A DNA stretch of 64,000 nucleotides from Synechococcus sp. CC9605. GTDB taxonomy: Bacteria > Cyanobacteriota > Cyanobacteriia > PCC-6307 > Cyanobiaceae. The notes under the pieces were generated by a model, which worked only from the letters and a program-made list of their open reading frames with translations, made no database searches and was not told where the DNA came from. Below are positions 6,985-59,585 of this stretch, one piece after another (position 1 is the first letter of the stretch; each line of letters starts with the position of its first letter). Made by a program: the position numbers and the translations under genes. The DNA lies in assembly GCF_000012625.1 (NCBI RefSeq), contig NC_007516.1, positions 744,001-808,000 of the forward strand, read 5' to 3'.

Positions 6985-6995
6985 AACTTACTGAA

Positions 6996-34362: not shown

Positions 34363-34387
34363 AGTGCATGTACGCCTGAGGGCGTGT

Positions 34388-34474: not shown

Positions 34475-34571
34475 TATCTAAATAGTCCCGTGTGTTCCTT
34501 GCTCGTCCCAAAACCAGTGCGTTGGTAGTCGCTTGGAACCGTCATTCCAGTCGGCACTTTCAGTTTCCGAA

Positions 34572-38875: not shown

Positions 38876-38926
38876 CTTTGATTTAACCCTTATACATTCT
38901 CTACAAACCTCACATTCAATCCAGTC

Positions 38927-41086: not shown

Positions 41087-41120
41087 CACTCTGACGAAGG
41101 CTGACGTCAATCGTTAAATT

Positions 41121-41151
41121 AAGAGGGCATGGTCATCATGCCCTCTTTTTT
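41121..41151 (+). terminator. Intrinsic terminator after the AGE-STAS gene
   Basis: A perfect 11-bp stem AAGAGGGCATG / CATGCCCTCTT with loop GTCAT is followed by TTTT. It separates glgX and the AGE-STAS gene from the next gene, whose ATG is only 11 bp beyond. Confidence 0.9.
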
Positions 41152-41162
41152 GCAACAAAATT

Positions 41163-42566: not shown

Positions 42567-42567
42567 G

Positions 42568-44461: not shown

Positions 44462-45319
44462 ATGGCAAAAAGAATTCTTGTCGTCCTTTCTGAGTGGGGC
44501 TACTGGGGCGAAGAGTTGATTGGCCCTCTAGACGTACTGACAAAGGCCGGTTATCAGCTTGACTTTATGACTGCGTTTGGCCGCAAGCCGCCTGCGCTGC
44601 CTCCCAGTATGGAAGAAGGATATCTCGATCCCCCACTTAATAAGGTTGTAACTGACGCGCACTTTGCTAAGCGAACCACTGAGGTTCATGAATCAAATCT
44701 TTTAGGCAATCCAATTAATTTATCTGAAAAAATCTCATTGATGCCATATTTTAATGGCCCTAATTTTGGTTTAGAATTAGCAGCTTTCCACGAAAGACGT
44801 GAAGAATTCTGGAAGGAGTATGTTGATCCTTATGATGCCCTTCTACTTCCAGGAGGTAGTGGCCCAATGGTAGATATGGTCAACAACGAAAGACTGCATA
44901 ACTTGATCCTGGGTTACGTAGACCGGGACAAATTAATTGCTGCTGAATGTTACTGCGTAACTTGTCTGGCTTTTGCTCGTGACTGGACTGAACGTAAAAG
45001 CATTATATGGGGTAAGAATGTTACCGGTCATGCAAGGGAATATGATTACAAAGAGGGAACGGGATTTGCCCAAATGTATGGATATGATGGTCAACCTATG
45101 AATACATCTGCCAACTTTGGCCCTCCATTTTATCCCTTGGAATATATTTTGCGCGATGCTACAGGACCCAACGGTAAATACCATGGAGGTGTCGGCAAAA
45201 ATCTATCCACGATCTTGGATTATCCTTTCCTCACCGGTCGCTCTACACAAGATTCTGCATTAGTTGGTGAGCTGATAATCAAAGTCTTGGAGCAGGGTTT
45301 GAAACGCTTCGGCTGGTAA
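44462..45319 (+). CDS. DJ-1/PfpI-family protein A
   Basis: This 285-residue class I glutamine-amidotransferase-like protein starts at ATG 44462 (MAKRILVVLSEWGYWGEELI). The DJ-1/PfpI core is visible: GPLDVLTKAGYQLDFMTAFG, the acidic residue in GEELIGP, YDALLLPGGSGPMVDM and the nucleophile-elbow Cys in IAAECYCVTCLAF. A long insertion (residues 40-125) and a C-terminal extension with HAREYDYKEGTG exceed the normal 170-190 residues. Members include glyoxalase III, isonitrile hydratase and chaperone-like proteins. It opens the A+T-rich enzyme cluster and is paralogous to the protein at 53795. Confidence 0.8.
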   Translation: MAKRILVVLSEWGYWGEELIGPLDVLTKAGYQLDFMTAFGRKPPALPPSMEEGYLDPPLNKVVTDAHFAKRTTEVHESNLLGNPINLSEKISLMPYFNGPNFGLELAAFHERREEFWKEYVDPYDALLLPGGSGPMVDMVNNERLHNLILGYVDRDKLIAAECYCVTCLAFARDWTERKSIIWGKNVTGHAREYDYKEGTGFAQMYGYDGQPMNTSANFGPPFYPLEYILRDATGPNGKYHGGVGKNLSTILDYPFLTGRSTQDSALVGELIIKVLEQGLKRFGW

Positions 45320-45376
45320 CTCAAGACAATGGCGCCTTACAGGGCGCCTCATCGCTCACCCCATTCTTATTTCACT

Positions 45377-47098
45377 ATGAAAGGCCATGAGGCAATCCTG
45401 AGGCAATTTCTTGCCAACGGAATGGACCATATGTTTGGAAATCCTGGGACAGTTGAGCAGGGATTTCTTGATGCTCTGGCTGATGTGCCAGAGATGAAAT
45501 ACATTCTCACCTTGCAAGAGTCTATTGCTGTGCTGTGTGCAGATGGATATGCGAGGGCACGATTGAAACCTGCTCTTGTTCAGATTCACAGTTCACCTGG
45601 ACTAGGGAACGCCATTGGTAATCTTTATCAAGCCATGCGTGGGCAGGCTCCACTCGTTGTTATTGGGGGAGATGCTGGTATTAAATATCAAGCGATGGAT
45701 GCCCAGATGGCTGCAGATCTGGTTGCAATGGCAGAGCCAGTGACAAAGTGGTCTGCAATGGTTCAACATCCATCCAGTCTTTTGAGGATGGTTCGCCGTG
45801 CTATCAAGGTTGCAGCAACACCTCCCTGTGGACCTGTTTATCTTTGCCTCCCTGAAGACATTCTGGATGCTGAAATTACGGAGAAAATAATCCCCGCTCA
45901 TATCCCAAGCCTTGAAACATGTCCAGGCTCGCTGGATTTGGACCGTATGGTTTCTGCAATTCAGTCAGCACAGAACCCCATTATTTTGGTTGGCGATGGT
46001 GTGGCCTGGACCGGAGGTGTTGAAAAAATTGTTGATCTTGCAGAAACACTCGGCGCCAAGGTTTATTCGGCAGATGGTGGTGAAATTAATTTTCCTGATG
46101 ACCACCTATTAAATTATGGAAGCACTGGGCATATGTTTGGTGATCAGAGTCTTCCGATCATGCAATCATGTGATTTATGTCTTACTTTGGGCTGTTATTT
46201 ACTGCCCGAAGTTTTTCCTCATCTCGGTGACATTTTCAATGAGGATGCCACGATTATTCATGTGGATACCAACGTTGATAACATCGCTAAAAACCATAGG
46301 GTAGATATATCTTATGTGGCTGAACCCCATTCTGTCGTTACAGGGTTATTGCCCATTCTTAAATCACTCTCGTCTAGCTGGCACAACGCAGCTCAACAAA
46401 GACGATCAAAGCTCGAGTCAGAATCACCTGTAGTTCATAACAACGTAGATCAAAATTATCAAGTTGAACCTCCGTATCCATCTGAGGCCTATGACGGTAT
46501 CAATCGTTCCATGCGTTCCGGATACTTTATTAAAACATTGGCAGATAAGCTTCCAAAGGAAACTATTATATTTGATGAAGCCTTAACCAATTCACCTCCG
46601 GTGAATCGCTACCTTCCTGGCCAAAAACCCGGTGATCGTATGTTGACGCGTGGGGGTTCCCTCGGTACAGGATTTCCAGGCGCCATTGGCGCAAAAATAG
46701 CCTACCCCGATCGATGTGTTATTGGCTTTTCCGGTGATGGGGGGAGTATGTACACCATTCAGTGTTTGTGGACTGCAGTAAGGCATAATGTTGCAGCAAA
46801 ATTTATTGTTTGTCAAAATCGATCATACAAACTTCTTCAGTCCAATATCTCAAAATTCTGGCAAGAACGTGGAATTGAAGGTAGAGAGTTTCCAGTACCC
46901 TTTGATTTATCAAAACCTGAAATTTGCTTCAGTGTGATAGCTAATAGTTTTGGTGTGAGTGGAGAACGTGTTGTTAGGCCAGATCAAGTTGGAGAAGCAA
47001 TTGATAGGATGCTCAACCATGATGGTCCCTACCTAATTAATCTAGTTCTCGATGGAGATATCAGACCTGATTTGATTGGCGTACGCTGCGGTCAGTGA
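45377..47098 (+). CDS. ThDP-dependent enzyme, benzoylformate-decarboxylase-like
   Basis: This 573-residue thiamine-diphosphate enzyme of the 2-keto acid decarboxylase/acetolactate synthase fold starts at ATG 45377 (MKGHEAILRQFLANGMDHMF). The N-terminal domain has GNPGTVEQGFLDAL, the activating Glu in YILTLQESIAVLCADGYARA and the active-site His in QIHSSPGLGNAIGNLYQAM. The last two align with Glu47 and His70 of benzoylformate decarboxylase. The C-terminal domain has the ThDP/Mg motif GFSGDGGSMYTIQCLW with Asn in FIVCQNRSY. It probably acts on an aryl or branched 2-keto acid. It follows DJ-1 A by 57 bp. Confidence 0.85.
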   Translation: MKGHEAILRQFLANGMDHMFGNPGTVEQGFLDALADVPEMKYILTLQESIAVLCADGYARARLKPALVQIHSSPGLGNAIGNLYQAMRGQAPLVVIGGDAGIKYQAMDAQMAADLVAMAEPVTKWSAMVQHPSSLLRMVRRAIKVAATPPCGPVYLCLPEDILDAEITEKIIPAHIPSLETCPGSLDLDRMVSAIQSAQNPIILVGDGVAWTGGVEKIVDLAETLGAKVYSADGGEINFPDDHLLNYGSTGHMFGDQSLPIMQSCDLCLTLGCYLLPEVFPHLGDIFNEDATIIHVDTNVDNIAKNHRVDISYVAEPHSVVTGLLPILKSLSSSWHNAAQQRRSKLESESPVVHNNVDQNYQVEPPYPSEAYDGINRSMRSGYFIKTLADKLPKETIIFDEALTNSPPVNRYLPGQKPGDRMLTRGGSLGTGFPGAIGAKIAYPDRCVIGFSGDGGSMYTIQCLWTAVRHNVAAKFIVCQNRSYKLLQSNISKFWQERGIEGREFPVPFDLSKPEICFSVIANSFGVSGERVVRPDQVGEAIDRMLNHDGPYLINLVLDGDIRPDLIGVRCGQ

Positions 47099-47193
47099 TT
47101 TAATCAAACCAATGACGGAGTCATACGAACCCATATGACCCCACACTATTCATTAACTTAAGAGTTAACCCTAAATCTTTATTTGGCTGCTTA

Positions 47194-48174
47194 TTATTTT
47201 TCCGTTTGTGTCACGAAATAGTTTTGCACACCTACAGGCTCACCCTTCCAACCTGTGTGTCGTAGCCATTTCTCGAAATCCATCACCTCTGGATTTATAG
47301 ATTTAATAAATTCATAGTCTCGATCAATTCCATAATCCCGTATAAATTCAAACATATTGCCTACAAATTCTCCGTCTGGACTGTCTGGGATATCATTTAC
47401 TGTTGCCCGTGATTTTTCACGGAATTCTTTCAAGGACATTGGTTCATAAACAGCTTTTATTCCAGTTACGCTTGAAAAAGTTTCCGCAATTTCCATCATT
47501 GTCGGCGAACCTGAAGCAACAAATAGTTTCTTACCTTTCACGCTCTCGAATTCGGAAAATGCATAAGCTGCGAATCTTCCAATATCATCGAGTGCAACCA
47601 TTGTGTATGGCTTGTCTGCCATTGGATCTCTGAAGACAAATTCCACACCTTCTTCACTCCCTTCACGTTTTTCTGGCAATGCATACCCCATAAAATTCTC
47701 GTAGTAAGGTGCTGTAACAAGAATAGTTGCCTTAGGAAGAATCGCTTGTATGTATTCAGCTGATTCTGCTTTTGAGTCAAAATATGGAACCGCTAGAGTG
47801 CTTTTAGTAATTGCTGAAACGTATTCTAGTGAACTATAAACGAGATGCTCAACAGACTCCTTTAAGCATGCTGTAGCAACATTGATGGACTGGACAACTT
47901 CCTGAACACGACTTCCAGCAGTCCAATAATCAGTGTTGCAAAAAACACCATCCACTCCTCTAAAAGCTTCTTCTAGGCTTTTCTGATCACTTGTATCTGC
48001 TTGAACCGCAACTATTCTGTCGCTGTAATTCTCTAATTCCTTGGCGCGCTTACCCATAGGATTACGAGTTAATGCGCGTACTCTAAATCCATTGCTGGGA
48101 TGATCGATTAAAGAGTGCACGATTGAACGACCCATGGCTCCGGTGGCACCTACGACGGCAATTGTTTTCATCAT
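47194..48174 (-). CDS. NmrA-like NAD(P)-binding protein
   Basis: In this 326-residue atypical short-chain dehydrogenase fold the NAD(P) motif is IAVVGATGAMGRSIVHSLI, followed by VRALTRNP (Arg typical of NADP preference), VQADTSDQKSLEEAFRGVDG VF and VYSSLEYVS. The canonical YxxxK is not evident, as in NmrA/HSCARG regulators and some isoflavone-type reductases. The C-terminal domain has EIAETFSSVTG and VYEPMSLKEF. It is the only minus-strand gene in the cluster and could be either an enzyme or a redox-sensing regulator. It is divergent from the SnoaL-like gene at 48323. Confidence 0.8.
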   Translation of the reverse strand: MMKTIAVVGATGAMGRSIVHSLIDHPSNGFRVRALTRNPMGKRAKELENYSDRIVAVQADTSDQKSLEEAFRGVDGVFCNTDYWTAGSRVQEVVQSINVATACLKESVEHLVYSSLEYVSAITKSTLAVPYFDSKAESAEYIQAILPKATILVTAPYYENFMGYALPEKREGSEEGVEFVFRDPMADKPYTMVALDDIGRFAAYAFSEFESVKGKKLFVASGSPTMMEIAETFSSVTGIKAVYEPMSLKEFREKSRATVNDIPDSPDGEFVGNMFEFIRDYGIDRDYEFIKSINPEVMDFEKWLRHTGWKGEPVGVQNYFVTQTEK

Positions 48175-48322
48175 TAGGGCAGATTTTTTTTGATTTTAGC
48201 AAGAAACCCAAGTTTTCTCTACTATCGCTAGACTTTTTACTATTACTAATGCACAGTTATTCCGAAGCGCTTGATACAAATGATTTTGGGCTTTGGTGGG
48301 ATATTCAACTTCATTTTGTGCC

Positions 48323-48754
48323 ATGAAATCTTCAGAAAATCTGCTTATGGCGATGTTAGTTGATGATTTCTATGCCAAGGTTGCCGACCAGTCTGATAAA
48401 AATACGGCAACTAGAATTGTTAGTCCGTCTGTAGAGTTTTACGCTTCAGGTAGCGATGTGCCTGTAGGTTTTGATGATTTCTTTGATTATGTCTCCATGT
48501 TTCAAAGAGCTCTTGCATTTATGCGTCTTATTCTTGAAACCTTGGTTGACAATAAGACTGCATTGATATATTGGCGCGTTGAAGGAACTCACAAGAAAGA
48601 GTTGCTAGGTTGTTTCCCTACCAACAAAGCAATTGTCTACACAGGCATGTCGTTGTTCTATTTTGATGACGAGAATCTTATCTCAAAAGTTATTACTTGC
48701 TTCGACGAGAAAACTTTTATAGAGCAGCTCTGCGCTGGCTCAGAGCCAGAATGA
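48323..48754 (+). CDS. NTF2/SnoaL-like protein 1
   Basis: The 143-residue protein starts at ATG 48323 (MKSSENLLMAMLVDDFYAKV). The cone-like alpha+beta pattern of the NTF2 superfamily is seen: an N-terminal helix, a strand with SPSVEFYASG, DFFDYVSMFQ, then long strands (KTALIYWRVEGTHKKELLG; YTGMSLFYFDDENLISKVIT CFD). The family includes polyketide cyclases, ketosteroid isomerases and dehydratases. No single catalytic residue can be assigned. First of four such folds in this cluster. Confidence 0.7.
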   Translation: MKSSENLLMAMLVDDFYAKVADQSDKNTATRIVSPSVEFYASGSDVPVGFDDFFDYVSMFQRALAFMRLILETLVDNKTALIYWRVEGTHKKELLGCFPTNKAIVYTGMSLFYFDDENLISKVITCFDEKTFIEQLCAGSEPE

Positions 48755-48865
48755 TTGGCTTTTGTCAACACACTGTGACTTCGGGGTCTGTTTGCTGCCA
48801 AATTTAGTCTTCGTTGCTAAGACTAGTAATGGATAAGTAAATCCGTCCAAATCAGTCTTGACCTC

Positions 48866-49585
48866 ATGATTCACCAGCATATTCTGGCAGCTCCCCGTCC
48901 TGGTTTAAGCGAGGCTGAGTTTCAGGATTACTGGAGATACGTTCATGCCTTAAAGTTTGCCCGCAAAATTCCTCAAATTAGGAAATACAAAGTCAACTCA
49001 AGAATTGATATACCTGGGCAAGATAGAGAAATTGAATTTTCTGGTATAGCAGAGATATGGCTGGATAATGAGCAAGCACAAGCGGATTCGATCAAAACCC
49101 CTGAATTTCTTGATGGAGCGTTGCACGATGAACCAAATTGGGCTGCTTCTTGGCAGACCATTGGTCTTGACACTGAAGCTCATGAAGTAATGGGTGTTGA
49201 TCCAAGTGATGCCGAATTTCCTGAATACAAAATTATGCTTTTTCACAAGAAAAAACGTGATATGAGTTTAACTGATTTCAGAAGTTTGTACACATCCGGC
49301 TATTCAGACAAGATTCAAGGAGCCAACATCCCAAATCTAGTTCGTGTTCTCTGTTGTCTCTCTAAGGAACGTCTTTACGAAGCAGGAGGTGCTCCGCCTT
49401 TTGATGCTGTTACGCATCTCAGTGCTAATTCGATGCTTGATTTGAAATCTATGGTTGCTTCACCTCAACTTCAAGCCTTCCTGGATCCCGAGCATAGTGG
49501 TTTGAGTGAGTGGTGGGGTTTGGTCACCATGGCTGTGCGTTCCGAGTGGGTTTTGGGCCCTGAAGCAAGGCCATATCCATTTTGA
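48866..49585 (+). CDS. EthD-domain protein, duplicated dimeric barrel
   Basis: The 239-residue protein has two EthD-like alpha+beta barrel halves. The first has LSEAEFQDYWRYVHALKFAR and KIPQIRKYKVNS. The second begins EYKIMLFHKKKRDMSLTDFR and includes VRVLCCLSKERLYEAGGAPP FD. EthD-domain proteins occur in ether degradation and as cyclases or oxygenase-like enzymes in aromatic polyketide pathways. The internal duplication would let one chain form the usual dimeric barrel. It starts at ATG 48866. Confidence 0.75.
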   Translation: MIHQHILAAPRPGLSEAEFQDYWRYVHALKFARKIPQIRKYKVNSRIDIPGQDREIEFSGIAEIWLDNEQAQADSIKTPEFLDGALHDEPNWAASWQTIGLDTEAHEVMGVDPSDAEFPEYKIMLFHKKKRDMSLTDFRSLYTSGYSDKIQGANIPNLVRVLCCLSKERLYEAGGAPPFDAVTHLSANSMLDLKSMVASPQLQAFLDPEHSGLSEWWGLVTMAVRSEWVLGPEARPYPF

Positions 49586-49637
49586 TTTCCATACTTTACT
49601 CCTGGAAATCGGACTACCCTTCATCTCAAATTAATTC

Positions 49638-51089
49638 ATGGACCTACAACAACGCATTGATCAACTTTGGGAAGACACTAAGTCTGGTGACATTGAGGCA
49701 ATCCTCAGTCATTTTGCAAACAAGGGCTCTATTTGCTTTCCTAAAACTAGTGCAAACAACATTATTCCATTCACAGGTCTATTTCATGGCTCACAACAGA
49801 TTCGAGAATTTTTCGAATCAAAACAAGCGACCATTCATTTAAAAAATTCTACTGTTGAGTCTATTCACCACCAATCATCTACAGCATTTTTGAATGTAAA
49901 GGTTGAAGCTGAATGCTTATCGACTGGTACTTTGTTTAAATCAGATGAGCTTCATGTCTTTAAGTTTAATACTGTTCACCATATTTTAGAATGGACTATC
50001 TATGCCGATCTTAGTGAATTAATAGAAGCGTTGAAAGCTAACTTGCCAGATCAACTTCTTGAGGCCGTTTCGGCTAATAATGTCAACTCTGTTAAGCATT
50101 GTCTTCTCATGGGAGCTAATCCCAATGTGCGAAACAGTGTTACAGGGCTAACGGTTTTGATGATGGCAGCTTGTCAGGGCCAGACTGAAATTGTCAGGTT
50201 ACTTTTAGATGCTGGTGCTGATGTTTTCACCACCGACAGTTTCACTGGTGCTACTGCGCTTCACAAAGCTTGCCAAGGGCAGAATGCTGAAATTGCCAAA
50301 CTTTTAACCGACGCGGGATCTTTTATCGATGCGGTCACACCCACAATGGGGCATACACCAATCATGGATGCCCTTTGGTACTTAGCTCCAGACGTTGTGA
50401 AACATCTTGTTAGCTGTAAGCCCAATTTAAATACAAAAACACACTACGGTTTCTCTTTATGGGATCACCTTGAGTATGAGACCAAAGTCCAAGCGACTCC
50501 AGAAGGTAAGGCAACAATGGCAGCCATCAAATCAGATATTGAAGGTTACCGGGATCAATGTTTGTCATTAATTGAAGAACACAAAGTGATGGCTGCTACG
50601 GAGAAAGGTGATGCCGAACTTGTAAAGCAACTCATCGCTAGTGGTCACACTGTTGAAACTGTTTATCCCCATGTTAATACTTTTAGTGATGGTCATACTC
50701 CTTTAATTGTTGCTGCAAGGGATAATCACCTTGATATTGTCAAACTTCTTCTAGATGCTGGTGCTGAAGTAGACGTTTTTGATTGGGTTTTTAAGGGTTA
50801 TCCCATCCATAAGGCTACATATAATGGCCGCCCTGATGTCTTAAAGGTACTCTTAAGCTCACCAAAGATGACCAGCAAGGTCATTAATGTCCAGGGTAAG
50901 ATCAATGGTTACACGCCGCTAACAGATGCACTTTGGCATGGATTTGAAGAGTGCGCCAATATTTTGCTTGATCACCCTGAGTGCAAATTAGGTAATGTTG
51001 CACATGATGGTAAAGACGAATTGGCTGTAGCCGAGCAGGTTTTTGGAGTTGATCACAAACTTACCAATCGCATACGCAGTATGAGTTAG
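49638..51089 (+). CDS. NTF2-like domain fused to ankyrin repeats
   Basis: In this 483-residue product residues 1-128 form an NTF2/SnoaL-like domain (LWEDTKSGDIEAILSHFANK, PFTGLFHGSQQIREFFESK, DELHVFKFNTVHHILEWTIY). Residues 135-475 contain ankyrin repeats: GANPNVRNSVTGLTVLMMAA, QTEIVRLLLDAGADVFTTDS, TGATALHKACQGQNAEIAKL, TPLIVAARDNHLDIVKLLLD and GYTPLTDALWHGFEECANIL. The middle section around residues 255-315 is degenerate. Ankyrin repeats would scaffold a partner protein. This fusion within a metabolic cluster is unusual. ATG 49638 is used. Confidence 0.8.
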   Translation: MDLQQRIDQLWEDTKSGDIEAILSHFANKGSICFPKTSANNIIPFTGLFHGSQQIREFFESKQATIHLKNSTVESIHHQSSTAFLNVKVEAECLSTGTLFKSDELHVFKFNTVHHILEWTIYADLSELIEALKANLPDQLLEAVSANNVNSVKHCLLMGANPNVRNSVTGLTVLMMAACQGQTEIVRLLLDAGADVFTTDSFTGATALHKACQGQNAEIAKLLTDAGSFIDAVTPTMGHTPIMDALWYLAPDVVKHLVSCKPNLNTKTHYGFSLWDHLEYETKVQATPEGKATMAAIKSDIEGYRDQCLSLIEEHKVMAATEKGDAELVKQLIASGHTVETVYPHVNTFSDGHTPLIVAARDNHLDIVKLLLDAGAEVDVFDWVFKGYPIHKATYNGRPDVLKVLLSSPKMTSKVINVQGKINGYTPLTDALWHGFEECANILLDHPECKLGNVAHDGKDELAVAEQVFGVDHKLTNRIRSMS

Positions 51090-51133
51090 ATCCTCAATTA
51101 TTAGCTTTTTAATCAGTAAATTTCATTTTATTC

Positions 51134-51580
51134 ATGAACAATCTGACATCAGAAGATAGGCTTGAAATTCAAAATCTCAACGCGAGACATTTTCACTCTC
51201 TTGATGCATTGACACGTGTTCTTGATGGCAACCCAGCAGAAACTTGGGCAGACACTTTCCATCCTGACGGTACTTTTCAAATTGTTATGCAAGATGGATC
51301 GGTCTTATTTGAGGCCAAGGGTCGTGACAAGTTGATCGAAGCCCATTCTTCTTTTCCGGATATTTCAACAACCCGTCATTGGATCTGTAACCTTTTGATC
51401 GAGCCGGATCCACGTGGAGCACGATCTGCTTCGTACATTATTGCTATGAACATCGGGGTCAATCCAGCTCATATTATTAGAACGGGAACCTACGATGATC
51501 TCGTGACAAAACACAATGGTGTTTGGCTTTACGAACGTAAAATTCTTATTCTTGATGCATTCAGTCCTACTGCTGAATAA
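51134..51580 (+). CDS. NTF2/SnoaL-like protein 2
   Basis: The 148-residue protein starts at ATG 51134. The typical SnoaL-4 pattern is present: an N-terminal helix (SEDRLEIQNLNARHFHSLDA), WADTFHPDGTFQIVMQDGSV, FEAKGRDKLIEAHSSF, TTRHWICNLLIEPDPRGARS and the last strands (GTYDDLVTKHNGVWLYERKI). Asp and His positions (HPDG, TRHW) match those lining the pocket in scytalone-dehydratase- and ketosteroid-isomerase-like members, so a dehydratase or isomerase role is plausible. Confidence 0.75.
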   Translation: MNNLTSEDRLEIQNLNARHFHSLDALTRVLDGNPAETWADTFHPDGTFQIVMQDGSVLFEAKGRDKLIEAHSSFPDISTTRHWICNLLIEPDPRGARSASYIIAMNIGVNPAHIIRTGTYDDLVTKHNGVWLYERKILILDAFSPTAE

Positions 51581-51606
51581 AATTAAGTATCTCCTCTTGT
51601 TATTTT

Positions 51607-53115
51607 ATGGAACACTCACCTGCTATCGTCATCGGAAGTGGATTCGGTGGGTCTGTTGCTGCCCTGCGGCTTGCTGAGGCTGGCATCAAAACGCTTGTTA
51701 TTGAGCGAGGTAAACGTTGGACCATCCAGGATCCAACAGTCAACGAAACCTTCAGTACTTTTGACAGTCTTGATGGTCGTGCTGAGTGGTTGAATGATAC
51801 TGGACGCTCAGAAACTCCTGCTTATGAAGGATTACCTATAACCAAGCACACAGGAATTATGGAATGTGTGAAGCATGGTAAGTATACTTTTTTGGTGGGT
51901 GCTGCTGTCGGCGGTGGATCTCATTGTTATGGAGGGATTCTGATTGAACCTCCCGAGGAGCTCTGGAATAATCAAATACCAATGATTGATTATTCTGAAA
52001 TGCGAGATACGTACTTTCCAGTTGTTCATAAGACAATCGGCTCTTCACCGATTCCTGATGATATTCTAAATTCTGAATATTATTTAGGATTAAGGTCGCT
52101 TGTTTCTCAGGCAGAAAAGGCTGGTTTTACGGAATGCAGTAGTACCAACAATGGAATGAAAGATGGTTATGTTAGATTTAAGATGGGAATTGATTGGGAT
52201 GCCACAAGGGAAGAAATTGCTAATAAACGTGTGGCTTCACAGATTAAAGCTGAGTTCTGGTTTGGCCAAAATAGCGGTGCTAAGCAAACTTTAGACACTA
52301 ACTATCTAAAACTTGCCGAAGAAACTGGATCAGTCGAGATCAGACCTCTTCATCTTGTCAATTCGATTTCAGAGAACGAAGATGGATTATACATCATAGA
52401 AACATCGCGAATCAACACCAAGGGCGATGTGATTGAGACGAAGCTTTTTAGTTGCAACCAATTGTTTTTGGCGGCTGGTGTTCTTGGCACCTGTGAGCTC
52501 CTCTTGAGAGCACAATCCAACAACACAATTTCCAATCTACCCTCTGAGCTTGGTTCCAACCTTGGCAACGACGGAGATACTTTTGCAATACGTACTGAAC
52601 TTGATGAAAAAACCAATCCCCATCTTGGCGGACCTGGTGCTATTGCCATTTTGAACTATGAGAATCCCATAAGACCCGCCATCATGATGCGCGCACCACT
52701 TACCAAGTTTGATCGCTTGTTTCCCGATCATAATGCTATTGGGACTTTTATCTTTTCAAACTCTCATCACCGCGGTCGCCTAACTTTTAATAAAGATACC
52801 AATGGTCTTGATATCGAATATGAGCTTGATTATGATGCTATTTCAGCATCACAAGCGTTGCTCGATCGCTTCCAACAGGCTAATGGTGGGGAGATTATTC
52901 CTCCTGATGTTCAAATTACTGGTCATCAACTTGGAGGAGCTGCAATGGGTAGTGTCTGTGATTCTTTTGGACGTGTCCAGGGTCAGAAGGGCTTGTATGT
53001 CGTTGATGGATCTCTAATTCCAGGTTCCAGTACCTGTATGAATCCAGCTCTTACGATTGCTGCAGTGGCCGAACGTGCTCTGCAGAACATTATCCAGGAG
53101 GACATTTTGGTTTAA
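51607..53115 (+). CDS. GMC-family flavin oxidoreductase (cholesterol-oxidase-like)
   Basis: The 502-residue FAD enzyme starts at ATG 51607. The N-terminal dinucleotide fold is IVIGSGFGGSVAALRLAEAG with TLVIERGKRW. VGAAVGGGSHCYGGILIEPP follows, and the substrate domain ends in QITGHQLGGAAMGSVCDSFG (active-site His). The C-terminal GMC signature is GLYVVDGSLIPGSSTCMNPA LTIAAVAERAL. The family oxidises alcohols to carbonyls with oxygen or another acceptor; the substrate cannot be read from sequence. No Tat signal is seen, so it is probably cytoplasmic. It is the likely oxidation step of the cluster. Confidence 0.88.
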   Translation: MEHSPAIVIGSGFGGSVAALRLAEAGIKTLVIERGKRWTIQDPTVNETFSTFDSLDGRAEWLNDTGRSETPAYEGLPITKHTGIMECVKHGKYTFLVGAAVGGGSHCYGGILIEPPEELWNNQIPMIDYSEMRDTYFPVVHKTIGSSPIPDDILNSEYYLGLRSLVSQAEKAGFTECSSTNNGMKDGYVRFKMGIDWDATREEIANKRVASQIKAEFWFGQNSGAKQTLDTNYLKLAEETGSVEIRPLHLVNSISENEDGLYIIETSRINTKGDVIETKLFSCNQLFLAAGVLGTCELLLRAQSNNTISNLPSELGSNLGNDGDTFAIRTELDEKTNPHLGGPGAIAILNYENPIRPAIMMRAPLTKFDRLFPDHNAIGTFIFSNSHHRGRLTFNKDTNGLDIEYELDYDAISASQALLDRFQQANGGEIIPPDVQITGHQLGGAAMGSVCDSFGRVQGQKGLYVVDGSLIPGSSTCMNPALTIAAVAERALQNIIQEDILV

Positions 53116-53171
53116 TCCTTTATTGTCCTCAGCTGCTCTTTAGCTTTGTTCCATTCTTTACTGCAACTCCT

Positions 53172-53609
53172 ATGACTGCTTCAACGAAATCTGTCGCAGA
53201 AGCTTGGTTCGACGGATTGGATCGAGCTGATTACGCCAGTGCGATCTCTCTGCTTCATCCAGACATCGTTTGGATCAATGTTCCACAAATCAAAGATGGT
53301 AGTGATGTTATCCCTTGGATTGGAACTGCAAGGGGTCTCGACGAGGTTACTCATCAGTTCACTAAAAGAGACGGTGTTTGCGAAGTTAAAGAGTTTAAAA
53401 GTGTAGGACTTGTTTGTGAAGGTAATACTGCTGTTGGCTTGGTTCGCGATAAAGCAACAATTATAAAAACCAATATCACTTTTGAAATCATCTTTGCTTC
53501 GTGGATGACCATTGAGGACGGCAAGATTGTTCGTTGGAAGTCCTATTGTGATACTGCACCAATTATTGCTGCTTTCAATGGTATTCAGCCACCATCCCCT
53601 GAGATTTGA
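53172..53609 (+). CDS. NTF2/SnoaL-like protein 3
   Basis: The 145-residue protein starts at ATG 53172 (MTASTKSVAEAWFDGLDRAD). Pattern: ISLLHPDIVWINVPQI, IPWIGTARGLDEVTHQF, VCEVKEFKSVGLVCEGNTAV and a final strand WMTIEDGKIVRWKSYCDTAP. This is close to the SnoaL/ketosteroid isomerase-like group in which W.D...S..D..A ends the domain. A single domain with no fusion. Confidence 0.78.
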   Translation: MTASTKSVAEAWFDGLDRADYASAISLLHPDIVWINVPQIKDGSDVIPWIGTARGLDEVTHQFTKRDGVCEVKEFKSVGLVCEGNTAVGLVRDKATIIKTNITFEIIFASWMTIEDGKIVRWKSYCDTAPIIAAFNGIQPPSPEI

Positions 53610-53679
53610 TTAAACTATTGCATGCACCAGGCCTTTTGTGACTTTTTGCCTCTGCTTATCTCCACTAGTTTTGTATCTC

Positions 53680-53700
53680 TTCTTTCCCAATGGGAAAGAA
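53680..53700. promoter_or_regulatory. Perfect 10-bp palindrome upstream of DJ-1 protein B
   Basis: TTCTTTCCCA, one centre base, TGGGAAAGAA. It lies 95 bp before the ATG of the second DJ-1 gene and 70 bp after the preceding stop. The symmetry and short spacer suit a dimeric repressor or activator operator more than a terminator, since no T run follows. It would control the downstream half of the cluster (53795-57807). Confidence 0.5.
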
Positions 53701-53794
53701 ACAATGAAGAATATTGCTCCATGGCTTCGTCGAGCTAAATTGTAATTGATGTTCTTAGTTTTTAGCTAAGGATTTTTTACTTTTCAGCAGAGCC

Positions 53795-54559
53795 ATGGCA
53801 TCAATCCTTATGGTCGCCTCAAACCTCGGTGTTTGGGCAGAGGAATTACAAGGTCCTTGGGATGTCCTCAACGAGAAGGGCCACAACGTTACTCTTGCTA
53901 CTGAGCAAGGTATCAAGCCATTGCCTCATGTCATCAGCATGGATCCTGATGCACTTGACACTGTTCAGAATATTAAGGTCAATCCACAAAGTGTCGTTGA
54001 TAGATGTAAGGCTCTTTGGGCTTCAACTGCACTCGATAATCCTATTGCGATTAAAGATGCCAAGATGAGTGACTATGAAGCTATTGTTCTTATCGGGGGC
54101 CCAGGTGCCCCGTTAGACATGAATGGCAATTCTAAGCTTCATAAGCTTCTTGTTGATGCATTTGCCTCCGATAAATTAATTGCAACCATTTGCTATGCCG
54201 TTGGAGGCCTTGTTTGGGCTCGTAATCCTGAGACTGGTAAAAGTATTATTGACGGTAAGGTTATTTGTGCCCATCCCCGTGACTGGGACTTTACAGATCC
54301 TCTGCCTTATCCACTTGATGGTGCTCAATCTGGCAATGCAGGGACTGACCTCGTTACCCCTGGTTTTAATTACCCTGTTCAAACAATCGTAGAATTGGCG
54401 GTTGGAGAGAAAGGCCGTGTTCTTTCTAACCCGTACGTGCTTCGTAGTTGTCCCTGCACTCACTATGACTGGCCATTTGTGACGGCGCTATCTGTTGAGT
54501 CATCCACCCCATTTGGTTACATGATCGACAATGCTCTGAATCAAAAATATGGCAAGTGA
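53795..54559 (+). CDS. DJ-1/PfpI-family protein B
   Basis: The 254-residue protein starts at ATG 53795 (MASILMVASNLGVWAEELQG). Core motifs: the acidic AEELQGPWDVLNEKGHNVTL, YEAIVLIGGPGAPLDM and the nucleophile Cys in IATICYAVGGLVWARN, then HPRDWDFTDPLPY. It aligns well in outline with the protein at 44462 but is shorter. The Glu-Cys pair needed for DJ-1-type hydrolase/glyoxalase chemistry is retained. It follows an isolated palindrome and probably begins a second transcription unit; the next ATG is two bases past its stop. Confidence 0.82.
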   Translation: MASILMVASNLGVWAEELQGPWDVLNEKGHNVTLATEQGIKPLPHVISMDPDALDTVQNIKVNPQSVVDRCKALWASTALDNPIAIKDAKMSDYEAIVLIGGPGAPLDMNGNSKLHKLLVDAFASDKLIATICYAVGGLVWARNPETGKSIIDGKVICAHPRDWDFTDPLPYPLDGAQSGNAGTDLVTPGFNYPVQTIVELAVGEKGRVLSNPYVLRSCPCTHYDWPFVTALSVESSTPFGYMIDNALNQKYGK

Positions 54560-54561
54560 GA

Positions 54562-55431
54562 ATGTCTGTCTCTACCTCTAGCTCCTTTTTCAAGCTGGGT
54601 ACCCACACCCAACTTGATTTCCCTGTTCAGAATGTTGTTATCCACGTAATTAGTAGTCCGACTGAGGGTGGTTGGGAAGGAGTTAATAGCACTATTATTG
54701 AGCTAAATACCAAGCTCATCCTTATTGACCTACCCCTACATTATGGTGTTGCCAAGGAAATTCGTAGTTTTTGCAATGCGTCTGGCAAAGACATCCATCG
54801 CATTGTGATTACTCATGAGCATCCTGATCATTGGATGGGTACTTTTGCTTTTAGTGATCATGATATTTTTGCACAGTCTTCCACAATTGAATTTATTGCC
54901 AAAAATGGAGACGGTATTCTTGCACTCAAGAAAAATCAATTACCAGTTGATTGTCTTTCAGAATCTGTATACGTTCCCAATTGTTCTTTTGATGAACTCG
55001 AAGAGCTTGTTGATGGAATACATATTAAATGGTCAATCGCAAGACATTTAGAATATCAATCTGCTTTTTATGCTGAAATCCCTGAGTTAGCAGTTCTTGT
55101 TGCTGGTGATATGTTATATAATAATTGTCATCTTTTTCTTGGCGAGCGTCTTCAGGATGGACAACCTAATGCCACTCAATGGCTTTCCCAACTTAGGAAT
55201 ATAGATTTTTCTATTTATCGTTCAATTATTCCAGGTCATGGAGCTGTTGGTGATTCAGGCATGGTCCAAACTTGTATCGAATACCTTGAAGCCATGATTC
55301 CAATTATTACTCTTCCCGGTATGACCACTGATCTTTATAAAAATAAAGCTATTCAAAAGTTTCCTAATCATAAAGTACAGGATATGTTGGATTTGTCTGG
55401 TTTTTTCTTGTACGACTTTCAAGGTCTCTAG
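54562..55431 (+). CDS. Metallo-beta-lactamase-fold hydrolase
   Basis: The 289-residue product has the zinc-site motif HxHxDH in IVITHEHPDHWMGTFAF. The bridging Asp is in VLVAGDMLYNN and a further His in IIPGHGAVGDSG. The N-terminal strands (VVIHVISSPTEGGWEGVNST) also fit the fold. Substrates of this superfamily include thioesters, lactones and glutathione adducts. Lactone or thioester cleavage would suit a small-molecule pathway. ATG 54562 follows the DJ-1 B stop directly. Confidence 0.85.
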   Translation: MSVSTSSSFFKLGTHTQLDFPVQNVVIHVISSPTEGGWEGVNSTIIELNTKLILIDLPLHYGVAKEIRSFCNASGKDIHRIVITHEHPDHWMGTFAFSDHDIFAQSSTIEFIAKNGDGILALKKNQLPVDCLSESVYVPNCSFDELEELVDGIHIKWSIARHLEYQSAFYAEIPELAVLVAGDMLYNNCHLFLGERLQDGQPNATQWLSQLRNIDFSIYRSIIPGHGAVGDSGMVQTCIEYLEAMIPIITLPGMTTDLYKNKAIQKFPNHKVQDMLDLSGFFLYDFQGL

Positions 55432-55455
55432 GTTCTCATCCCATTTTTCTCTGTT

Positions 55456-56361
55456 ATGTCTGTACTCTTCACTGAGTTTGAAATCCCGATCAACACACCA
55501 CTGGGTTCACTGAACGCATGGGCAATTACCTATGGTAATCCTGATCATCCTAGGATTTTACTTGTTCAAGGAGGACCTGGTACAACTCATGATTATTTAA
55601 TTTCAACTGCACAAAGCCTTGCTGACCAGGGTTTCTCAGTAACAATGTATGGTCCTATCGGTACTGACTATAGTGAGAAAGCTCCTAATTATGACTTTTG
55701 TGATTTTGATTGGTTCATCAACGAGCTTAATCAAGTTGTAGATTACCTCAGGACTTCTTGTTCTGATCTGAAATTAATTGGCCATTCATGGGGAGGCTAT
55801 TTGTGTATCGATTATGTACTTAGATATCCTGATAAGATTTCCCAGCTGGTTGCATCAAATGCTGTTTCAAATTTGAAAGAGTATAATCGTTATTGTGCGG
55901 ATGTTCTTGTTCCTTCTTATCCTCCGGATAAGTGGGAGGTCGCTGCTAAAATTATTGAATCGCAAAACTTGAGTGATCCAGAGTTAAATCAAATTTTTTG
56001 GGATATACATTATCCAGTCCACGTATACCGTCATCCTTTGTCCGAATGGCCTGAACCTGTTATGAGAACCTTCACAACACCTAATCTTGAGATGTATCTA
56101 CCTGCATGTGGTCCAGTCGCTGTAGAAATTGTTGGCTGGCTAGCGGATTGGAATCGTACCGATGATATTAAGAATATTGAAATACCATCGCTCTTTATTA
56201 GTTCTGAATTTGATACAAATACGCCAGACCATATTAAATGGATGGCTTCACAGGCTCAGAATGGTCATTATCTCCATTGTCCAAATTCTGGACACTTTTC
56301 TCATCTTGATGACAAAGAAGTTTGGGAAAAATCTGTAATTGATTTTCTTAACTCTAACTGA
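55456..56361 (+). CDS. Alpha/beta hydrolase, proline-iminopeptidase-like
   Basis: The 301-residue hydrolase starts at ATG 55456. The oxyanion-region motif LLVQGGPGTTHDYLI (usually HGGPG), the nucleophile Ser in LKLIGHSWGGYLCIDYV, the Asp in LFISSEFDTNTPDH and the His in PNSGHFSHLDDKE form a complete catalytic triad. The cap domain lies between residues 125 and 225. The proline-iminopeptidase subfamily hydrolyses N-terminal prolyl bonds, but related enzymes take esters and amides. Its place in this cluster suggests a specialised substrate. Confidence 0.85.
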   Translation: MSVLFTEFEIPINTPLGSLNAWAITYGNPDHPRILLVQGGPGTTHDYLISTAQSLADQGFSVTMYGPIGTDYSEKAPNYDFCDFDWFINELNQVVDYLRTSCSDLKLIGHSWGGYLCIDYVLRYPDKISQLVASNAVSNLKEYNRYCADVLVPSYPPDKWEVAAKIIESQNLSDPELNQIFWDIHYPVHVYRHPLSEWPEPVMRTFTTPNLEMYLPACGPVAVEIVGWLADWNRTDDIKNIEIPSLFISSEFDTNTPDHIKWMASQAQNGHYLHCPNSGHFSHLDDKEVWEKSVIDFLNSN

Positions 56362-56392
56362 TCTATCCGCACAACTCTATCCTATTTATTCA

Positions 56393-57196
56393 ATGGACTT
56401 CACTTCCAAAATTTTCCAGTATCCTACTTTACAACATGATGGTTCCATTGTTTTCAATGAAGCTTCTATTGATTCCTCTTCAATTAATCTGCTAAATCAA
56501 TTTAATCTCGAGTTTATTAAAATACCTGCAGGCTCTTTTTTAATGGGGTCGACCACTGCTGATACCGGGCCCGATGCTATGCCCCAGCATGAGGTATCCA
56601 TTAAAAGCTTTTTAATGGCACAAGCACCTGTTACTCAGGATTTATATGAGGCAGTTGTTGGCAGTAATCCTTCCTTTTTTAAGAATCCTTCTTTACCCGT
56701 AGAGTGTATTAATTGGTTTGATGCCAAAAAACTCTGCGATCTTCTTACCTCTACCACCTCTTACAAATTTAGGCTACCTTCAGAGGCTGAATGGGAATAT
56801 GCGGCCCGAGGAGGTACTACATCCACTTTTTATTGCGGAGAGATGATTAGCAATCAAATAGGAAATTATATGGCCGAAGTCCCTTGGAAGAATGGCCCCC
56901 GTGGCGACTATGTTTGTAAAACACTACCTCCTAATAGTTACCCTGTTAATCCATGGGGTCTAAGTGATATGTCTGGTAATGTATTTGATTGGTGTCAAGA
57001 TGTTTACTGCTCCTATGAGCATGCCCCATCTGATGGTTCCGCTAATGAGCAATTAAATGGTCCGGAGGAGCGTTTGTTAAGAGGTGGATCTTGGTACCAC
57101 ACCCCGATTGCAACCGCAGTAACGGCACGTTTAAAGATTGACCCTTTATATAAAGGACCTGATATCGGGATGAGACTTGTTGTCGAAGCCAAATAA
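56393..57196 (+). CDS. Formylglycine-generating-enzyme-fold protein lacking the FGE cysteines
   Basis: The 267-residue SUMF1/FGE-sulfatase-fold protein starts at ATG 56393. Family hallmarks: FIKIPAGSFLMGSTTADTGP DAMPQHEVSIKSFLMAQAPV, RLPSEAEWEYAARGGT, WGLSDMSGNVFDWCQDVY and LLRGGSWYHTP ... GMRLVV. True FGE and several sulfoxide synthases carry a Cys pair or metal-binding residues after RGGSW. Here the stretch after GGSW has no Cys, so copper-dependent formylglycine formation is not expected. Such FGE-like proteins include hydroxylases and non-enzymatic binding proteins. It overlaps none of its neighbours. Confidence 0.82.
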   Translation: MDFTSKIFQYPTLQHDGSIVFNEASIDSSSINLLNQFNLEFIKIPAGSFLMGSTTADTGPDAMPQHEVSIKSFLMAQAPVTQDLYEAVVGSNPSFFKNPSLPVECINWFDAKKLCDLLTSTTSYKFRLPSEAEWEYAARGGTTSTFYCGEMISNQIGNYMAEVPWKNGPRGDYVCKTLPPNSYPVNPWGLSDMSGNVFDWCQDVYCSYEHAPSDGSANEQLNGPEERLLRGGSWYHTPIATAVTARLKIDPLYKGPDIGMRLVVEAK

Positions 57197-57231
57197 TACC
57201 AATCTTATTTTGTTCTTTCTTATTCTCCATT

Positions 57232-57807
57232 ATGCCTGAGCAAAATCCATCCAGCACTGTTCGTACTTCTTTCGATGACAATCTAGTATCAGATTATGTT
57301 TGGCCAGAGCCTCTTCAAGATATTGGCAGCTTTAAAAAAGATCAGCTCTCTCAATGTAGTAAGGATCTTTCCAGAAAAATTTTAAATCTTGGTCCTTCTT
57401 TTCAAGTAGGTTTTGCTTGTGTTGATGCTGAGAAGCAGGCTCGGTGGTATAAGGAAGCCTTTGGTTTCGTGGAAGACCGTCGTAATGATTTCAAAGAGTT
57501 TGGAACAATTGTAATTATGATGCGATGTGACACACCTCAAGGTTTTCAATTAAGGGTGGAATTTATTCAGCAACCTGAAGGTTTTGTCCTTCGTCGACCA
57601 AATCCTACATCCCATACGGTTTTTTCTGGAGTTTGTCAGTTCCAGTTCTGGGTTGACAATATTGATGAGGTATACCAAAGAATTGTTGACCGTGGTGACA
57701 TTGAAGTCTCCTGGGGGCCAATCGATGTAGGTGCTGGATTAAGAATGAAGCATCTTTTTGTTCGTGATCCAGAAAGCAATATTGTATTAATTTCTGAGCC
57801 TTATTAG
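57232..57807 (+). CDS. VOC-superfamily (glyoxalase/dioxygenase-like) protein
   Basis: In this 191-residue product an unstructured N-terminus of about 55 residues precedes one vicinal-oxygen-chelate domain. Its segments are VGFACVDAEKQARWYKEAFG, FGTIVIMMRCDTPQGFQLRV EFI, GVCQFQFWVDNIDEVYQRIV and KHLFVRDPESNIVLISEP. The terminal Glu and the Glu in RVEFI can be metal ligands; the usual first His is not obvious. It is the last gene of the co-directional cluster and is followed by a strong terminator. Confidence 0.8.
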   Translation: MPEQNPSSTVRTSFDDNLVSDYVWPEPLQDIGSFKKDQLSQCSKDLSRKILNLGPSFQVGFACVDAEKQARWYKEAFGFVEDRRNDFKEFGTIVIMMRCDTPQGFQLRVEFIQQPEGFVLRRPNPTSHTVFSGVCQFQFWVDNIDEVYQRIVDRGDIEVSWGPIDVGAGLRMKHLFVRDPESNIVLISEPY

Positions 57808-57950: not shown

Positions 57951-59585
57951 TCAGAAGTAGAAGGTTGTCATAAGGGACGCACCTAAGGATGATCCATTTT
58001 GATCTTGATTGCCGCCCATGCCTTGGAACCAATAGATAATTGGAGTTACAGTTATGTAGTTATTAACTTGCCAGGTCAGGTTCGCCATGGCTATCCAAGG
58101 ATCACCATGATCTTCCCCAAGTGTTGCGTCGCTCCATTGAATTGATGATGGTTGACCAAAGGCGAAACCAATTGTTGTCTCCTCAGTTGGAAATCTCTCC
58201 CACTGCAAGGTGGCAAGCCAAGCCTTGGACATAGCTTCGTCCCCGCGTTTTGAATATTGTGTTGTCAAATCTGACTCGTAGAATCCCAAGTTAACACCAC
58301 CGCTAATTGAGAAATCTTCGGTTATATACCAATATCCTGCTAATCCACCCGTTTGAACGGTCATTGGTGCGGGGGATACAAATACGTTCTCTGAAAATGG
58401 GTTTGTTGCGAGAGGTGTGCCTTGCATGTAGTAGAAGGTGGAGCCAGCTGCTGAGTCTCCATATTGAGTCCGTGTCCACCCCAATTGGAATCCAGCTCTT
58501 TGACTCGAGTATGAGAGCTGAGCTGCCATATTCCCTTGTGTTTTTCCCCCTCCCATTCCCAACGTAGAGTCGCTGCTATTGGAATTGGATGTAAGGTACC
58601 CAAAGTCTGCTGCCCATCCATTCTTCTTATATTTAATAGCAGCACCTCCGCCGATAATGTAAGGATATGCTGCTGGCACATTGGTAAATGTGATCATGTC
58701 ATTATAAAGATTCCTCAGACCAACCAAATTGCCTGACTTTGGAGACAATGCTGCAGTGCCAACAGTGATGTAATCAAACGTCTGCATTCTAGGAGAAACA
58801 GTAATTTCAATATCTTCCCCTATTGGGAATTTATAAAACATCCGATAAATTTCTAGTTTATTCTCACTGGCTAGGCAGTAAGCTGATGCTGATCCGAGGT
58901 ATGGATTGCCGCATGAAGGTGAATTCAAGTCAAAGTTGCTTGCTGAAAAAATCACCTCAAACATGTCCTTGCCTGTAAAGCTTGTCTTGAGCATTGGCAG
59001 GATGGTGTAAGCATATGTAGTTCCACCGTTTGCCTCGTTGTAATCATCAGATTTGCCGCTACCACTGAAACTGTTGGCATTCAGATTCCACACGGCAAAT
59101 ACATTTAATTTTGTTGTTGTACTGAATTGCATCGCTTCCAACTCGCCAATATTAGCCTCTAATCCATCTACTTTTCCTTTCAGGATTGCAAGCTCTGGCT
59201 CAAATTCACGTATTAGTCGTCTAATTTCATCGGTGATTGCGCTTATTCTCTCGAGACATGCATTTAATAAAGCTGCTGCTTCATAACGGCTGATTGATCT
59301 GTTTCCACGAAAACCGGAATCTGGATATCCAGCAACACATCCGTATCCTTCTACAAGGCGTTTAAGTGCTTGATATGCCCAGTCGGTTGGTTGAACGTCT
59401 GAAAAACCGGTCACGGTCGTGACTTGGTCGACGCTCTCATCTAACTCGTGCGCCATATAATTGTTCACTTCATTCAATCTTTGCTCCTGTTGTAGGTTTG
59501 ATTCGATCTCTTGAGCGAAGCCAGCAGTTTGACCGCATGCTGATAATGCCAGTAATGTCAAGCCAGTACGAACGAACGTTTTCAT
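57951..59585 (-). CDS. SLH-domain outer-membrane porin (Som/OprB family)
   Basis: This major outer-membrane channel is of the cyanobacterial type. In the 544-residue product the signal peptide is MKTFVRTGLTLLALSACGQTAGFA. An SLH domain (residues 60-110, FSDVQPTDWAYQALKRLVEG YGCVAGYPDSGFRGNRSISR YEAAALLNACLERI) anchors the protein to peptidoglycan. A coiled coil follows (IRRLIREFEPELAILKGKVD GLEANIGEL), then an OprB-like beta barrel ending in the typical terminal Phe (LMTTFYF). It is more A+T-rich than the core genes and has about 115 bp of upstream region before the next gene. Confidence 0.92.
   Translation of the reverse strand: MKTFVRTGLTLLALSACGQTAGFAQEIESNLQQEQRLNEVNNYMAHELDESVDQVTTVTGFSDVQPTDWAYQALKRLVEGYGCVAGYPDSGFRGNRSISRYEAAALLNACLERISAITDEIRRLIREFEPELAILKGKVDGLEANIGELEAMQFSTTTKLNVFAVWNLNANSFSGSGKSDDYNEANGGTTYAYTILPMLKTSFTGKDMFEVIFSASNFDLNSPSCGNPYLGSASAYCLASENKLEIYRMFYKFPIGEDIEITVSPRMQTFDYITVGTAALSPKSGNLVGLRNLYNDMITFTNVPAAYPYIIGGGAAIKYKKNGWAADFGYLTSNSNSSDSTLGMGGGKTQGNMAAQLSYSSQRAGFQLGWTRTQYGDSAAGSTFYYMQGTPLATNPFSENVFVSPAPMTVQTGGLAGYWYITEDFSISGGVNLGFYESDLTTQYSKRGDEAMSKAWLATLQWERFPTEETTIGFAFGQPSSIQWSDATLGEDHGDPWIAMANLTWQVNNYITVTPIIYWFQGMGGNQDQNGSSLGASLMTTFYF

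Follow-up and report, generated by a model that had tools for sequence, protein, structure and literature searches.

What can a run of enzyme genes do when it contains none of the classical cores of specialised metabolism, and do its members belong together? The question is raised by a cluster at positions 44462-57807 of a 64,000-nucleotide stretch of Synechococcus sp. CC9605 (hereafter the window), which corresponds to positions 744001-808000 of a single 2,510,659-base contig. Open reading frames (ORFs) and Pfam matches confirmed the cluster and the folds assigned to it in the original prediction, although it comprises 14 genes instead of 13, the ankyrin repeats encoded at 49638-51089 having been overlooked. 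It opens with DJ1a (44462-45319, ThiJ/PfpI-like, Pfam PF17124), the marker of the module described below, followed by the gene of a three-domain enzyme of the thiamine diphosphate (ThDP)-dependent 2-keto acid decarboxylase/carboligase family (45329-47098; Pfam, NCBIfam and structure-profile comparison). Nearly all genes had been described as running in one direction, and 13 of the 14 indeed lie on the plus strand, as do, unless otherwise stated, the window genes cited hereafter between 34387 and 57807. The boundaries had been drawn too narrowly, leaving out glycogen genes on the left side: the co-conserved unit extends to the glycogen debranching gene GlgX at 36710, its left part covering 36710-44211. 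As predicted, no polyketide synthase (PKS), nonribosomal peptide synthetase or terpene synthase was detected by Pfam among the 18 proteins of 36710-57807. The reading that we tentatively favour is that the island is a mobile metabolic unit linking storage glycogen to a small-molecule pathway.

Distribution of DJ1a and its partners

Homologues were retained at E 1e-40 for DJ1a, 1e-60 for the AGE-family epimerase/isomerase of the left part and 1e-6 for the accessory proteins. We recovered DJ1a in 10 of 292 cyanobacterial genomes, in 4 of 398 genomes from the phylum of a Rhodobacteraceae metagenome-assembled genome (MAG; G254), three of them besides that MAG itself, and in 1 of 297 genomes from the phylum of an Acidobacteria MAG, this single one being the MAG itself. 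It was also present in 14 of 72,556 plasmid records, on plasmids of Nostoc, Streptomyces, Deinococcus, Runella and Gemmobacter; Actinomycetota, Bacteroidota and Deinococcota were sampled through plasmids only. Since the Acidobacteria and Rhodobacteraceae loci are MAG contigs, the claim of a distribution across phyla is carried by the named plasmid records.

The ThDP gene adjoined DJ1a, or was one gene away, in 24 of the 27 DJ1a loci (a set that includes the window and two mis-binned Synechococcus contigs), with at least 44% identity in 23 loci and a divergent copy (29%) in G392. AGE lay within about 31 kb of DJ1a in 20 of the 27. Among the seven loci with no nearby AGE, three (L010, L011 and L013) are cut by contig ends, one (L116, genome G375) comes from a fragmented assembly in which AGE lies on other contigs, and in the plasmid stretch L019 AGE was not visible; the last two, L112 and L110, are considered with the variable loci below. 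AGE was found in 26 of the 292 cyanobacterial genomes and in nine of the ten that carry DJ1a (Fisher p = 8e-10, a value uncorrected for relatedness that overstates independence, the counted genomes being related). The two genes were within about 31 kb of each other in seven of the nine cyanobacterial genomes having both, and a crude estimate puts the chance of seven linkages out of eight below 1e-10 (G375 was excluded because its contigs are uninformative).

The plasmids exhibited the same neighbourhood. In ten plasmid stretches, DJ1a stood beside ThDP in all ten and was accompanied by AGE in nine, by a GlgX homologue in seven and by some alpha-glucan enzyme in ten; six of the stretches had been picked by EthD and four by DJ1a, so the frequency of EthD among them is biased. 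The EthD protein of the window (48866-49585, 239 amino acids, one Pfam domain) was matched over at least 97% of its length in nine plasmid records, all within the 14 that carry DJ1a, although several Streptomyces records are alike and the independent cases are fewer than nine; five further plasmid records matched only 38% of the query. Deinococcus and Streptomyces plasmids (L087, L015, L017) carry cation:proton antiporter genes close to the cluster, a hint of stress physiology.

Other members of the cluster recurred with the DJ1a-ThDP pair. In two other cyanobacteria, G259 and G375, we recovered, clustered in different orders, DJ1a, ThDP, EthD, a SnoaL_4 protein (51134-51580, Pfam; also in L055 and L116), the ankyrin-repeat protein (49638-51089; Pfam ankyrin, with an NTF2-like N-terminus judged by eye in an 8-row alignment), a GMC flavoprotein (51607-53115; Pfam and structure-profile comparison) and a VOC/glyoxalase-fold protein (57232-57807; Pfam, NCBIfam). 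Identities to the window in these two genomes were 56% and 61% for GMC and 48% in both for the ankyrin protein, and only 27% and 28% for VOC. EthD was present in nine non-Synechococcus loci plus L116. The Rhodobacteraceae MAG locus reads SnoaL_2-ankyrin-MIase-MBL-DJ1b-EthD-DJ1a-ThDP; the window counterparts are a SnoaL_2 protein (53172-53609, Pfam), DJ1b, a second DJ-1/PfpI protein (53795-54559, Pfam; 46% in L013), and a hydrolase of metallo-beta-lactamase (MBL) fold (54556-55431; Pfam, alignment).

Several of these genes were fused elsewhere. DJ1c, the DJ-1 of the glucan part, forms one ORF with DJ1a in G392, G567 and G687; the ankyrin protein of G375 has SnoaL_2 as its N-terminal domain; and a Deinococcus plasmid carries a 449-amino-acid ORF with MBL and SnoaL domains (Pfam), of which the record annotates the second part only. 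Such fusions join the glucan part to the module, and members of the module to each other. Taken together, the ThDP and AGE neighbourhood, the occurrence on plasmids and the fusions argue that the DJ1a-ThDP set is a real, horizontally moving unit whose usual partner is storage-glucan metabolism and not a PKS, steroid or aromatic pathway. The internal coherence claimed in the original prediction was therefore retained in part: it is supported by the association of ThDP with DJ1a and by the G259 and G375 clusters, and independent occurrence of the genes in other genomes was not what we found for most of the set, but for four of the 14 genes no homologue was listed at E 1e-6 in the non-Synechococcus loci compared.

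The glucan part and its likeness to the icfG cluster

The left part of the unit begins with GlgX (36710-38875), a glycogen debranching enzyme of the isoamylase type (NCBIfam TIGR02100, 704.6 bits against a cut-off of 640.9) that adjoins AGE in relatives. The AGE-family epimerase/isomerase follows (38927-41086; Pfam GlcNAc_2-epim, 37.4 bits against a cut-off of 23.4), with a C-terminal STAS fusion that was below the Pfam threshold; its profile matches were weak, with E 2.7e-5 to AGE structures and E 0.002 to STAS structures. The usual SSAG site is missing from this STAS domain, in which the aligned place reads VDDTG; standalone STAS proteins had SSAG in seven of eight cases and ASAG in the eighth. 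Next come a protein with TPR and a putative 2OG-Fe(II) oxygenase domain (TPR2OG, 41163-42566, Pfam), with 36% homologues in strains G162 and G112, and, on the minus strand, an X25-like protein (42568-44211) with a sub-threshold Pfam X25 match (22.7 bits against 27).

The X25 starch-binding modules include Sca5X25-2, whose structure with maltotriose (7RPY) was described, in the part of PMC9112005 available, together with maltooligosaccharide binding. The window protein is very remote from them, the likeness consisting of the sub-threshold Pfam match and a weak profile match to 7rpy (E 0.0017). Perhaps it contains several starch-binding-type repeats, but these are poorly supported, with BLAST matches in two of six pairs (E 0.002 and 1.3). 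AlphaFold models of AGE-STAS and of the X25-like protein, built from two-sequence alignments, had a mean predicted local distance difference test score of 48 and 36, respectively, and were left out of the fold searches.

Outside cyanobacteria, the Acidobacteria MAG contig exhibited the order DJ1a-ThDP-EthD-DJ1c-AGE/STAS-GlgX, with GlgX cut by the end of the stretch; its AGE/STAS protein and that of the window are 50-53% identical. Within cyanobacteria, GlgX was matched in 23 of the 26 AGE stretches (G375 counted twice), DJ1c in 22 and a SpoIIE-type phosphatase in 14. A comparable arrangement is described in the accessible parts of PMC8670252 and PMC12329169 for the icfG cluster of Synechocystis PCC 6803 (slr1852-slr1862), with the AGE protein Slr1855, the STAS anti-sigma antagonist Slr1856 and the GlgX protein Slr1857. 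As in that cluster, known to us by description, AGE, STAS and GlgX lie side by side in the window. In contrast to it, the window has STAS and AGE in one protein and the DJ1a-ThDP-EthD-GMC module in addition, and neither a Slr1861-type kinase nor an IcfG-type SpoIIE phosphatase belongs to the cluster. A domain search of the genome found no SpoIIE or HATPase kinase domain within 744001-808000; the single SpoIIE match of the genome is at C1:14861, and HATPase_c_2 matches are at 1122391, 1678989 and 1737383, the last under the cut-off. An identification of Anabaena lti46.2 as the AGE protein was rejected: the portions of PMC4915528 and PMC6616624 at hand describe it as a Dps protein.

At the level of sequence, GlgX, the AGE epimerase and the starch-binding-type protein form an icfG-like glucan part of the island, and the DJ1a-ThDP core with its putative tailoring enzymes (EthD, GMC, SnoaL, VOC and MBL) forms a second part, linked to the first across phyla. 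The finding is wider than first stated, and none of the families tested accounts for it. We found no description of the glycogen-DJ1a-ThDP combination in the open-licence literature, where such an absence weighs little.

Active sites and the candidate pathway

Like enzymes of the benzoylformate decarboxylase family of ThDP decarboxylases/carboligases, the window enzyme has three ThDP domains, and its closest solved relatives were recovered at E about 1e-53. We take the active site of benzoylformate decarboxylase to consist of S26, E47, H70 and H281. E64 and H87 of the window enzyme align with its catalytic Glu and first His and were kept in all 14 rows. The Ser is instead a Thr (T41), and the second His has no conserved equivalent, as judged only from the alignment with 6a50, which itself shows no His at that position. 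The score against the NCBIfam benzoylformate decarboxylase equivalog was 287, compared with a cut-off of 493.

The GMC flavoprotein is similar along its entire length to GMC-type cholesterol oxidase (E about 1e-68). In the latter, the oxidation site presumably comprises H447 and N485, with E361 serving isomerisation. The corresponding His and Asn, H440 and N479, were kept in seven of seven aligned rows, but the isomerisation Glu is a Met in the window protein, which scored 129 against an NCBIfam cholesterol oxidase cut-off of 850. These results bear on the suggestion of the original prediction that the cluster degrades an imported aromatic or steroid-like compound. A cluster devoted to catabolising or tailoring such a compound would agree with the likeness to cholesterol oxidase, with the EthD, SnoaL and muconolactone-isomerase-type folds, and with an 843-amino-acid ORF near DJ1a in G611 (L093 4558-7089) that combines a prenyltransferase-type alpha-alpha toroid with ankyrin and SnoaL domains. 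We nevertheless consider it very improbable, given the Met at the isomerisation position, the glucan enzymes that are its neighbours in other genomes, and the Pfam search of the 18 proteins, in which no ring-opening enzyme, CoA-ligase or transporter was found.

E18 and C163 of DJ1a were kept in at least 95% of 27 rows, and the HxHxDH motif of the MBL hydrolase in three of three. The DJ-1, VOC and MBL proteins also raise another possibility. With two DJ-1 proteins, a VOC protein and an MBL hydrolase in the unit, and with DJ1c sharing the stretch in 22 of the 26 AGE cases, one could imagine a defence against reactive carbonyls tied to glycogen turnover, in which the DJ-1, VOC and MBL proteins would act as glyoxalases III, I and II on sugar-derived dicarbonyls while ThDP, GMC and NmrA proteins would clear aldehydes and keto acids. 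This is rather unlikely in our opinion: DJ1a, DJ1b and VOC scored far under the curated NCBIfam glyoxalase cut-offs, the rarity of the set would be unexpected for a detoxification kit, and GMC, EthD and many SnoaL proteins are not obviously needed for such a task, the Runella plasmid having as many as seven genes annotated as ester cyclase/NTF2.

Two further proteins of the right part have recognisable sites. The alpha/beta hydrolase (55456-56361; Pfam, alignment) has a GHSWG nucleophile elbow. The FGE-fold (FGE-sulfatase) protein (56396-57196, Pfam) carries the RGGS motif near which formylglycine-generating enzymes presumably have their copper-binding cysteine pair; because no Cys follows RGGSW in its sequence, and hence no such pair, formylglycine formation is unlikely. 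A scan for anti-phage defence systems, covering 10 of the 18 proteins and among them eight of the 14 cluster members, returned matches only from the ankyrin repeats of one protein and lent no support to a defence role.

The pathway that we tentatively favour would start from storage glycogen. AGE would turn debranched maltodextrins into a free or isomerised sugar, and the ThDP enzyme, together with the DJ-1 proteins, could make, break or rearrange carbon-carbon bonds beside the carbonyl of a sugar-derived keto compound. GMC would oxidise this compound, the EthD, SnoaL and VOC proteins might isomerise, dehydrate or cyclise the oxidised product, and the MBL and alpha/beta hydrolases might open an ester or lactone. 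The order of the steps and the substrate are inferred. The outcome would be the making or conversion of a small carbonyl compound with a putative role as metabolite, protectant or signal. Among the further enzymes of related loci are a gluconolactonase-type protein (Nostoc ATCC 53789), a beta-propeller lactonase (Deinococcus), an SDR of the glucose-1-dehydrogenase type together with a glycosidase (Nostoc C052), and an HpcH/HpaI aldolase (G567), each noted in one or a few loci, uncounted. Such enzymes fit an oxidation and cleavage of sugar-derived carbonyls and, with the kept active-site residues, underlie the favoured reading.

Island composition and variability of the cassettes

The A+T-rich island extends from about 34.5 kb to about 61 kb and starts just past a tRNA-Ser (CGA) gene at 34387-34475 (composition, ARAGORN). 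The G+C content at third codon positions (GC3) is 0.27-0.39 in the 14 genes of 44462-57807, compared with 0.72-0.81 in five core genes left of the island and 0.63 in one gene right of it, which bears out the contrast with a G+C-rich genome noted in the original prediction; the horizontal acquisition that it proposed is likewise supported. GlgX and AGE have intermediate values of 0.49-0.52. Within the plus-strand runs, intergenic gaps are 9-185 bp and two pairs of genes overlap, one of them depending on the choice of start codon; such spacing makes an organisation into operons plausible. The remaining members of the cluster are an NmrA-like NAD(P)-binding protein (47194-48174, Pfam), the only one on the minus strand, which overlaps the KR domain below the Pfam threshold, and the first SnoaL-like protein (48323-48754, Pfam). 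An SLH-domain porin, presumably of the cyanobacterial type, adjoins the cluster at 57951-59585 (Pfam).

Cassettes differ between strains. In G162, DJ1a-ThDP-hypothetical-SnoaL-VOC comes after the GlgX-AGE-TPR2OG-X25 block; in G112 (L052 11410-16770), the genes beyond GlgX-AGE-TPR2OG encode an EthD-domain protein, a VOC protein and a 1139-amino-acid multicopper oxidase. No tRNA-Ser was found in either stretch; tRNA-Tyr and tRNA-Thr are separated from the cassette by about 1.3 kb in G162 and by about 15 kb in G112. The DJ1a tree (27 rows) and the ThDP tree (23 rows) are poorly resolved in their middle. Deinococcus grouped with the Synechococcus group and G334 in the DJ1a tree (100/97) and not in the ThDP tree, and we read both as suggesting the absence of a simple species pattern, drawing no further history from them.

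Matches of 98% and 87% in a Gammaproteobacteria and a Deltaproteobacteria MAG (L010 and L011) were rejected as evidence of transfer. We took them as mis-binned Synechococcus contigs because of their window-like gene order, the neighbouring porin in one and the X25-like gene in the other; neither had an AGE match. The DNA identity between the window and L010 is 97-100% from 44.5 to about 54.5 kb and mostly 77-89% thereafter, and the sharp drop at about 54600, at the DJ1b/MBL junction, likely marks a recombination boundary inside the cluster. Searches did not support a phage origin: DJ1a had no match in 50,697 phage records and none was confirmed in IMG/VR, where one pattern-based scan detects close relatives only.

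This variability brings in a further explanation, according to which the locus is a stress-regulated storage site for unrelated enzymes that share mobile islands and regulation instead of one pathway. Both the variable accessory genes, G112 keeping GlgX-AGE-TPR2OG with a different cassette, and the unlike GC3 of GlgX/AGE and the 14 genes would agree with it. Yet the same families recur across phyla in varied orders, and three kinds of fusion connect them, so that we judge a mere storage site quite improbable.

Other observations weigh against a glycogen-linked pathway. The glucan part often stands alone, 17 of the 26 AGE genomes lacking DJ1a, and the Fisher test suffers from the relatedness mentioned above. 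L091-L093, from the phylum of G254, read AGE-DJ1c-DJ1a-amylase with no ThDP within the stretch read (the L092 contig ends about 400 bases after DJ1a); in L112 (G507) AGE is far from DJ1a, and L110 (G334) has ThDP-GMC-DJ1a with no AGE match at the threshold. Accessory enzymes vary among loci: NmrA, the first SnoaL, the alpha/beta hydrolase and the FGE-like protein had no homologue listed at E 1e-6 in the non-Synechococcus loci compared, and two plasmids have hydrolases of another subfamily. The assignment to X25 is weak, as are the structure matches of AGE and STAS. Moreover, the DJ1a-AGE linkage could reflect shared regulation only, and the enzymes might either build or clear carbonyls, the substrate, product and purpose of the pathway being putative.

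A few observations concern the surroundings of these genes. Leader-peptide-type genes, two of them Nif11 and one annotated as NHLP, lie near GMC in two Nostoc plasmids (L014 18714-19374 and L088 7932-8648), and a Gemmobacter ORF (L016 21925-22254) is 34% like one of them, with no Pfam match; none was noted in the window cluster. Farther left, at 4557-7997, two minus-strand ORFs encode consecutive segments of a phage-type DNA-dependent RNA polymerase (Pfam RNA_pol), as might be left by a disrupted prophage; the ORF at 6996-7997 looks like that of a tyrosine integrase, yet had no Pfam match.

Beyond this strain, it is conceivable, if still doubtful, that these loci represent an undescribed class of specialised metabolism built from storage glycogen, in which a partner-switch-related glucan module (AGE, GlgX, DJ-1) would feed a DJ-1/ThDP core, interchangeable tailoring cassettes would lead to different products, and plasmids and islands would have spread the system over at least five phyla. 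According to the available part of PMC2441476, 60-78% of island genes in marine Synechococcus have no assignable function. Links of the icfG cluster to glucose and carbon regulation date back to the 1990s, yet the passages available leave the job of its AGE, DJ-1 and GlgX enzymes unexplained. The linked ThDP/GMC/EthD module offers a concrete handle on that function, and DJ1a is a rare sequence marker for clusters that searches for classical biosynthetic cores miss. Knowing what the ThDP enzyme converts, and into what, would reveal what the glucan side delivers.

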